From a bacterium (GTDB lineage Bacteria; CAIWAD01), in assembly GCA_030429345.1 (NCBI GenBank), contig JAUIFJ010000041.1:1-25427 (forward strand): 25,427 bases of DNA. The letters are read 5' to 3'. The position numbers and the translations under genes are program-made. Of the stretch, positions 12,111-14,054 are shown piece by piece; positions within the stretch are counted from its first letter, which is position 1; every line of letters begins with the position of its first letter. A model generated the notes under the pieces. The model saw nothing but the letters and a program-made list of their open reading frames with translations. It searched no databases and was not told where the DNA came from.

Positions 12111-14054
12111 ATGAGCAAGCACGAACACCCCACCCCGGACACGGAACCCGCCAGCGCTCGTTCCAAGGATGAAAGCCTGCGCGAACGGTTGCAGCGCAAT
12201 GAACTCTTCGAGGTGCTCGACGAGGCCGAACTGGCCGACATCGAGGCGCTTTTCGAGGAGATGGAAGTCCATCCCGGCGACTATGTGTATCACGAAGGCG
12301 ACCACCGCAACCGGCTGTTCTTCGTGCGCCGCGGACGGATCCAGGTCCTTGGCAACGTGGGCGAGGACGGCAAGGTCATGCTGCACTACCGCGCCGGCAA
12401 CTATTTCGGCGAGGCCTGTCTGCTGGATGACAATCCCCACGCCACCGCCGGACAGGCCCAGAGCCACTGCAGCCTCTGGGTGCTGACGCGCAAGCGCTTC
12501 CTGGACTTCCTTTCGCAGCATCCGCAGGCCGGAGCCCGCGTGCTCGGGCGCGCCTCGCGCGTGGTCTTCCGCCGCATGAACGCCGGCAACATCAGCCGGC
12601 CGGGCGAAGGGCTGGCTTCGATCTACATCAGCGGCGACACGCGGGAAGAGACGGACCTGCTCGGACCGATCCAGATCCCGGAAAACGCCTACTACGGCGT
12701 CCAGACCATGCGCGCGGTCGAGAACTACGACATCAGCGGCATTCGCATTTCGCACTTTCCCAATTTCATCAAGGCCCTGGCCATGGTGAAGAAGGCCGCC
12801 GCGCAGGCGAATCACAAACTGGGCATGCTGAGCGAGGAGCTGGCGAATGCCATCAGCCAGGCCTGTGACGACATTCTCAACGGCCACCTGCACAACCAGT
12901 TCGTCGTCGACATGGTGCAGGGCGGCGCCGGCACCAGCACCAACATGAACGCCAACGAGGTGATCGCCAATCGCGCGCTCGAGATCCTGGGAGAGCCGAA
13001 GGGCAACTACGAGCGCGTCAACCCCAACGACCACGTCAACATGAGCCAGAGCACGAATGACGCCTATCCGACGGCCTTCCGCCTGGCGATCCTGCTCAGC
13101 TATCCCAGCCTGATGGAATCGATGGATGACCTGGTGTTGGCGTTGAAGGACAAGGCGCGGCAGTTCGAGCTGGTGATCAAGATGGGCCGCACCCAGCTGC
13201 AGGACGCGGTGCCGATGACGCTGGGGCAGGAATTCAATTCCTGGGCGCATACCATCGAGGAGGACATGGACCGCGTGCGCGAGGCGGCGCGCCACTTCCT
13301 CGAGACGAACATGGGCGGCACGGCGATCGGCACGGGCATCTGCGCCGACCCGGCCTATCCGCGGGAGGCGCTGCGCGCGCTGCGCCGTGTGACATCCATG
13401 GATTTCCGTGTATCACCGGACATGATCGAGGCCAGCAGCGACACGGGGAGCCTGCAGGTCTTCAGCGGCGTGCTGCGTCGCATCGCGGTCAAGATCTCCA
13501 AGATCTGCAACGACCTGCGCCTGCTGAGCAGCGGACCGCGCTGCGGTTTCGGCGAGATCAACCTGCCGCCCCGCGCCCCGGGCAGCAGCATCATGCCGGG
13601 CAAGGTCAATCCCGTGATACCGGAGGTCGTCAACCAGGTGGCCTACCAGGTGATCGGCAACGACCTGACCGTGACCATGGCCGCGGAGAACGGCCAGCTG
13701 CAGCTCAACGTGATGGAGCCGGTCATCGTCTTCAACATCTTCCAGAGCATCGACATGCTGACGCGGGCCTTCAACACCCTGCGCAGGCTCTGCATCGAAG
13801 GGATCACGGCCAACGAGGAGCACTGCCGGGAGATGGTGATGCACAGCATCGGCCTGGTGACGGCGATGATGCCCTACATCGGCTACAAGAAGTCGAGCCA
13901 GGTGGCCAAGGAGGCCCTGGAGACCGGCAAGCCCGTGGCCGACCTGGTGCGCGAAAAGGGCTGGGCCACGGAAGAGCAGATCCGCGAGATCCTCGATCCC
14001 CAGAACATGATCGCCCCGGTGAGCCTCAAGGACCGTCGCGGGAACGGCTTCTAG
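12111..14054 (+). CDS. aspA: Aspartate ammonia-lyase fused to an N-terminal cyclic-nucleotide-binding-like domain
   Basis: 647 residues against about 470-480 for ordinary aspartases; the extra is an N-terminal domain. Residues 30-150 have the Crp-type cNMP-binding fold: HPGDYVYHEGD, LFFVRRGRIQVL, and a phosphate-binding-cassette-like segment with F99-G100-E101. The Arg that normally grips the cyclic phosphate is His at 110 (NPHAT). From about residue 178 to the end it is a close match to aspartase: AYYGVQTMRAVENY, GGAGTSTNMNANE, MGRTQLQDAVPMTLGQEF, and the catalytic loop GSSIMPGKVNP with S492. EVVNQVAYQVIGND favours aspartase over fumarase. It would release ammonia from aspartate to give fumarate. 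The fusion suggests allosteric control by a small ligand or a scaffold role. The ATG at 12111 is preceded by GGGAG. Confidence 0.9.
   Translation: MSKHEHPTPDTEPASARSKDESLRERLQRNELFEVLDEAELADIEALFEEMEVHPGDYVYHEGDHRNRLFFVRRGRIQVLGNVGEDGKVMLHYRAGNYFGEACLLDDNPHATAGQAQSHCSLWVLTRKRFLDFLSQHPQAGARVLGRASRVVFRRMNAGNISRPGEGLASIYISGDTREETDLLGPIQIPENAYYGVQTMRAVENYDISGIRISHFPNFIKALAMVKKAAAQANHKLGMLSEELANAISQACDDILNGHLHNQFVVDMVQGGAGTSTNMNANEVIANRALEILGEPKGNYERVNPNDHVNMSQSTNDAYPTAFRLAILLSYPSLMESMDDLVLALKDKARQFELVIKMGRTQLQDAVPMTLGQEFNSWAHTIEEDMDRVREAARHFLETNMGGTAIGTGICADPAYPREALRALRRVTSMDFRVSPDMIEASSDTGSLQVFSGVLRRIAVKISKICNDLRLLSSGPRCGFGEINLPPRAPGSSIMPGKVNPVIPEVVNQVAYQVIGNDLTVTMAAENGQLQLNVMEPVIVFNIFQSIDMLTRAFNTLRRLCIEGITANEEHCREMVMHSIGLVTAMMPYIGYKKSSQVAKEALETGKPVADLVREKGWATEEQIREILDPQNMIAPVSLKDRRGNGF

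Follow-up and report, generated by a model that had tools for sequence, protein, structure and literature searches.

A family of aspartases with an N-terminal cyclic-nucleotide-binding domain and an altered phosphate site

Aspartase stands where nitrogen assimilation, amino-acid breakdown and fumarate respiration meet. Its generally known regulators are the substrate and metal ions. In the window analysed here, a stretch of 25,427 nucleotides from a bacterial contig, an aspartase is encoded in one frame with a domain of the CRP/PKA cyclic-nucleotide-binding type (CNBD). This raises the question of whether the enzyme carries its own sensor and, if it does, what that sensor binds. A built-in nucleotide-type sensor would place the aspartase step under post-translational control by a signalling molecule, so that a second messenger or nucleotide would act on aspartate breakdown without transcription.

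Architecture of the fusion protein

The fusion gene (Table 1) carries a ribosome-binding-like GGGAG a few bases 5' of its start codon. The first-pass annotation had read one frame joining a cNMP-binding-like domain to an aspartase, and the 647 codons, together with Pfam matches to both parts and an NCBIfam match to the lyase, confirm this. Pfam places cNMP_binding at residues 52-137 (61.8 bits, cut-off 27.5), Lyase_1 at 185-516 (314 bits) and FumaraseC_C at 582-634, the last two also above their curated cut-offs. A gene reading on the opposite strand of the locus is out, given a stop inside the reverse frame. No promoter-like match was found around the fusion gene, and no RNA elements or tRNAs were found in the window.

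Table 1. Positions of the fusion gene, its parts and its two neighbours in the window
Feature	Position	Strand	Evidence or remark
Dihydroorotase, upstream neighbour	10669..12006	+	NCBIfam PRK09060, 547 bits (cut-off 482)
CNBD-aspartase fusion gene, 647 aa	12111..14054	+	Open from ATG to TAG
CRP/PKA-type CNBD, residues 23-161, with long C-helix 138-160	12177..12593	+	Pfam PF00027, AF2 model, PDB matches
Arg66, PKA RI-alpha Gly169 position	12306..12308	+	30/30 fusions vs 0/28 other CNBDs
Phosphate-binding cassette (PBC), residues 100-113, GEACLLDDNPHATA, Glu101 kept, Arg-to-His at 110	12408..12449	+	
Linker, residues 160-177, family motif Y172, S174, G175 before the lyase	12588..12641	+	
Complete aspartase (aspartate ammonia-lyase) module, residues 176-638	12636..14024	+	PRK12273, 733 bits; 6wng, 1e-175
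Catalytic SS loop GSSIMPGKVNP, residues 491-501	13581..13613	+	
CDP-alcohol phosphatidyltransferase (PgsA-like), downstream neighbour	14080..14748	+	Synteny shared within the family

Modelled alone with AlphaFold2, the CNBD reaches a pLDDT of 90.5 and shows a full beta-roll, a PBC helix and a long C-helix, and its structural matches, with Z values of up to 17.9, include CRP, GlxR, PKG, CNG and HCN domains and related CNBDs. With a Pfam match above the gathering score and the CNBD fold in the model, the domain belongs to the CNBD family. The range of about 30-150 originally given for the sensor was fair, since the structural CNBD is wider than the Pfam match. The full-length model is of fair quality (pLDDT 77.9), with a low-confidence loop at linker residues 160-172, and its lyase part matches known aspartases with target-normalised TM-scores of 0.84-0.88.

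The lyase module outscores the PRK12273 cut-off of 510 bits, whereas the model for class II fumarases, TIGR00979, reaches 489, under its cut-off of 665. The aspA equivalog model TIGR00839 gives 668.5 for the window fusion, 13 bits short of its cut-off of 681.2, which is passed in 27 of the 30 fusion genomes. The window protein carries the aspartase signature GSSxMPxKxNP and the active-site motifs, and all 26 aligned fusions contain GAGTS, STND, GRTQLQDA and the catalytic loop GS[ST]IMPGKVNP. By these criteria, with aspartase models beating fumarase models, the fusion lyase is an aspartase whose catalysis and homotetrameric assembly are predicted. The earlier description of a full-length aspartase (about 178-647) with an intact catalytic loop is thus borne out, the module as delimited here ending at residue 638. 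Stand-alone bacterial aspartases AspA/AspB (6wng, 1jsw, 1j3u, 3r6v) share the full-length lyase and its motifs with the fusion, the closest solved relative being the Elizabethkingia enzyme 6wng (about 58% identity in structural alignment). The known ones are without a CNBD, whereas the fusion has about 170 extra N-terminal residues.

On the sensor side, the fusion shares its fold, PBC helix, Glu and C-helix Arg155 with CRP/FNR regulators and with the CNBDs of PKA, PKG, CNG and HCN. The effectors of those proteins are a DNA-binding domain, a kinase or a channel, whereas here the effector is a metabolic lyase; the helix-turn-helix of CRP/FNR is absent, the C-terminal part matching only Lyase_1 and FumaraseC_C in Pfam. 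CNBD-regulated enzymes are a known kind, as the cAMP-controlled mycobacterial acetyltransferase Pat illustrates. Pat likewise has an N-terminal CNBD, and its model matches residues 31-145, but it is of a different enzyme class, and the full Pat model scores 22 bits on the fusion against a cut-off of 460. Family 2B encapsulins are bacterial proteins other than transcription factors that also have a built-in CNBD, with a ligand that is unproven (PMC8346489), as in the fusion; they are shell proteins, not enzymes, and match fusion residues 31-146 weakly. Among the open-access papers searched, we found none on the CNBD-aspartase domain pair and no report of the Arg66/His110 pocket described below.

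Distribution and history of the domain pair

The first-pass annotation had proposed to look for homologues and their taxonomic spread, and had named an assembly error as grounds for abandoning its reading. Scanning one genome per species, we recovered the fusion from about 30 independent assemblies, which span roughly ten phyla and share its domain architecture; an assembly error, a frameshift or a chance fusion is thereby excluded. Record labels comprise Bacteroidota, Gemmatimonadota, Myxococcota, Thermodesulfobacteriota, Nitrospirota, Pseudomonadota, Acidobacteriota, Chloroflexota, Calditrichota and Bacillota; single labels may be wrong, because most of these records are metagenome-assembled genomes. 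All three Pfam families are matched by 26 of 26 aligned fusions. Judged from these sequences, the domain pair is genuine, of old origin and widely distributed. In the window's own phylum, three of five genomes carry it. The genome L005 is labelled Acetofilamentum (Bacteroidaceae), yet its fusion and gene order group with this five-genome phylum; the label is probably wrong.

Among 198 sampled Bacteroidales genomes, 40 have the fusion and 18 an unfused aspartase, and none has both (3.6 expected if the two were independent; probability of zero 0.014). The fusion is therefore the resident aspartase rather than an accessory copy. In the window's genome, the only other comparable gene is 39% identical and fumarase-like.

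The two halves of the protein yield different trees. Fusion CNBDs group together with a support of 85/97, apart from one long-branch outsider, and their monophyly is not rejected (AU p 0.35). In the lyase tree, the fusions are scattered among unfused aspartases in about four groups (four changes), and a single fusion clade is rejected (AU p 3e-9). Because the lyase tree rejects one clade and the CNBD tree does not, the simplest reading would be one old pairing followed by loss of the CNBD in several lineages, or by domain exchange. A related arrangement was seen in three Syntrophobacterales-type genomes, where downstream of a dicarboxylate symporter gene come an unfused aspartase and then a separate CNBD protein of about 160 aa. 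The aspartase and CNBD genes lie within a few hundred bases (L066 9431-10600, L067 9425-10700, L070 5956-6700), and the separate CNBD has Trp/Tyr in place of the pocket Glu/Arg.

The pocket and the case for gating

We compared the pockets of 30 fusion CNBDs with those of 28 other CNBDs, most of them the best-scoring ones from 116 other genomes and a few from loci already examined. Position 110, which aligns with the canonical PBC arginine (Arg209 of PKA RI-alpha), is His in 27 of the 30 fusions, Pro in two, Tyr in one and Arg in none; the other CNBDs have Arg in 26 of 28 and His in two. The His first noticed at the usual phosphate-gripping position of the window protein is thus a family-wide feature. 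Position 66, which by counting along the alignment corresponds to Gly169 of PKA RI-alpha, is Arg in every fusion and in no other CNBD, 26 of the 28 having Gly. Two further positions differ: 102 is Gly/Ala in 29/30 fusions and mostly Met/Leu in the others, and 112 is Thr in 23/30 vs 1/28. Fisher tests give p values of 3e-17 for R66 and 1e-10 for H110, which are not true probabilities because the compared CNBDs are related. The ribose-binding Glu101 is present in 28/30 fusions, that is, in all sequences having this column (the other two are gapped), and the C-helix Arg155 is conserved as in known CNBDs. Of the marks of a canonical cAMP/cGMP-binding CNBD, the fusions thus keep the PBC Glu, and have neither the PBC Arg nor the Gly of the beta2-beta3 loop.

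In canonical CNBs, Gly169 and Arg209 are co-conserved and physically linked: the glycine packs on the guanidinium group of the arginine and relays the ligand signal (Kannan et al, 2007, PMC2246266). The fusion family has thus exchanged both residues of the pair, with His and Arg where CRP/FNR and the PKA, PKG, CNG and HCN domains have the phosphate Arg and its Gly. The suggestion made from the window alone, of a ligand other than ordinary cAMP, gains strength from this, because the position coupled to the missing arginine has changed with it. The family offers a natural test of CNBD ligand binding after replacement of two coupled phosphate-site residues.

Fusion CNBDs are only 19-42% identical to that of the window and diverge much faster than the lyases, and yet the pocket looks remodelled rather than decayed in all but one lineage. 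A sensor pocket degenerate in all homologues, which would have spoken against the first-pass reading, was not seen. The exception comprises two near-identical fusions (L019 7983-9839 and L021 7983-9839), in which Glu101 is missing and His110 is replaced by Pro, while the domain itself and Arg66 are kept. As this lineage is without both the pocket Glu and His, gating is not universal, and the retention of Arg66 despite the loss of the pocket suggests that this residue may serve otherwise, for example in a domain contact. These two records are labelled Chloroflexota and Alphaproteobacteria; two sequences this similar under such distant labels suggest a wrong label or a recent transfer. Just upstream of the lyase, the linker keeps Y172 in 20/26, S174 in 17/26 and G175 in 24/26 sequences. 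The persistence of this motif despite the fast divergence of the CNBD fits a constrained joint and is not proof of coupling.

The same observations bear on whether the domain senses anything at all. It could instead have a structural or docking role, stabilising the tetramer or holding a partner, and be kept by surface and linker constraint. KCNH channels are known to have CNBD-like domains without ligand binding, and such a channel structure, 6syg, is among the fold matches. The absence of the canonical phosphate arginine from all fusions, the faster divergence of the CNBD compared with the lyase and the persistence of domain and Arg66 in the exceptional lineage would agree with this explanation. 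However, a Glu101 and a His110 this uniform are hard to reconcile with decay at about 20-40% identity elsewhere, and we regard a non-sensing domain as rather unlikely.

The occurrence of one fusion across many phyla and its distinctively altered pocket point instead to a probably switchable enzyme, and a candidate CNBD-gated aspartase, with control in either direction, is the reading towards which we lean. The ligand-gated aspartase first proposed thus holds with respect to the domain pair, the complete sensor fold and the constrained pocket, and does not extend to the lineage without the pocket Glu and His. In such an enzyme, the N-terminal CNBD would act as an allosteric sensor for an aspartase converting L-aspartate to fumarate and ammonia. 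The remodelled pocket would bind a small molecule that most likely contains a ribose, such as a nucleoside or a cyclic or non-cyclic nucleotide; Glu101 would hold the ribose, with His110 in place of the phosphate-binding Arg and Arg66 in place of the coupled Gly. On binding, the C-helix and the linker would move against the lyase's first beta-hairpin (176-190) and thereby turn catalysis up or down. The predicted parts of this scheme are the binding of a ligand and its chemical class, together with the direction of control and the geometry of the tetramer.

Candidate ligands and neighbouring genes

Because Glu101 and the C-helix Arg155 are conserved, the ligand probably contains ribose; candidates are a cyclic nucleotide gripped by R66/H110, another nucleotide and a nucleoside. 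More ambitiously, and only tentatively, the fusions could represent a new class of CNBD, with His/Arg for Arg/Gly, that senses a ligand other than cAMP or cGMP and directly gates aspartase across about ten phyla.

As a variant of the gated aspartase, class III cyclases could supply the ligand in the form of ordinary cAMP or cGMP, the phosphate-contacting arginine being jointly replaced by His110 and Arg66. Our cyclase searches covered class III. Class III cyclases occur in 27 of 31 fusion genomes (one genome being counted under two handles), compared with 20 of 40 genomes with unfused close aspartases and 79 of 116 relatives; in Bacteroidales, they occur in 35/40 genomes with the fusion, 2/18 with an unfused aspartase and 82/140 with neither. 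In addition, in four Bacteroidales genomes a cytidine deaminase follows the fusion on the same strand, and a convergent response-regulator (REC) class III cyclase comes next, one gene away from the fusion; their proteins are 88-96% identical, and as close relatives they count as one case. The direction of the cyclase counts is in line with cyclases and a cyclic-nucleotide ligand having been lost together, although clade confounding could explain all of it: the association rests on two to four independent phylogenetic contrasts, too few for a controlled test. Moreover, four fusion genomes are without a class III cyclase, one of them (G029) estimated to be 100% complete. Arg66 occupies the position that packs on Arg209 in PKA, which would suit a joint replacement, but even an Arg-to-Lys change in PKA weakens cAMP binding nearly tenfold (PMC2246266). 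On balance, cAMP or cGMP seems rather unlikely to be the ligand.

A CNBD without the phosphate Arg need not be empty. The Trypanosomatid PKA regulatory subunit, whose structure 6h4g is among the structural matches of the fusion, has such a domain and can bind nucleosides, an extra Glu at the Ala202 position gripping the 3' and 5' OH of the ribose (PMC10959531). By analogy, the fusion pocket could bind a nucleoside or a non-cyclic nucleotide and so match aspartate breakdown to nucleotide supply. The trypanosome-type Glu was not seen in the fusions, however: the equivalent residue 103 is Cys in the window protein and A/I/V/S/T/C among the counts listed, and the mark of the fusions is the R66/H110 pair. 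In keeping with this idea, the window gene follows a dihydroorotase and the four Bacteroidales fusions precede the cytidine deaminase. Aspartate feeds pyrimidine synthesis, and dihydroorotase acts in the aspartate-derived carbamoyl-aspartate pathway. Each of these adjacencies is confined to a single lineage and may be due to chance; in the related genome L005, too, dihydroorotase and PgsA-like genes lie near the fusion, as neighbours only. We consider nucleoside or pyrimidine sensing improbable.

His110 could also coordinate heme, making the domain a heme or metal sensor, as does the structurally equivalent histidine of CooA at the Arg209 position (PMC2246266). The fusions, however, keep the ribose-type Glu and the canonical PBC length, unlike the CooA/FixK motif (PMC2246266), and the genes next to the fusions examined included no recognisable heme-handling gene, which makes this explanation very improbable.

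The neighbourhoods of some relatives fit a role in aspartate and asparagine uptake and catabolism, as far as gene order can indicate. A sodium:dicarboxylate symporter adjoins the fusion in L009, L010 and L011 (Rhodospirillales-type and Desulfobacterales-type loci), an Asp/Glu/hydantoin-type racemase lies near it in L010, with homologues in L009, L019 and L021, and a type II asparaginase gene lies 3' of it in L008. The racemase-family neighbour in L010 (11283-12722) is a protein of 480 aa with two matched stretches; its best model is the cysteate racemase CuyB (346 bits, cut-off 190), so the pathway there may not be plain aspartate catabolism.

Elsewhere in the window, a run of gliding-type ABC transporter-like genes (ABC_tran, ABC2 membrane, ABC_transp_aux and DUF4340) lies at 5823-10336 on the forward strand. 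On the reverse strand, at 17649-20870, an M1-family peptidase carries a C-terminal Por_Secre_tail sorting domain, which suggests a type IX secretion system.
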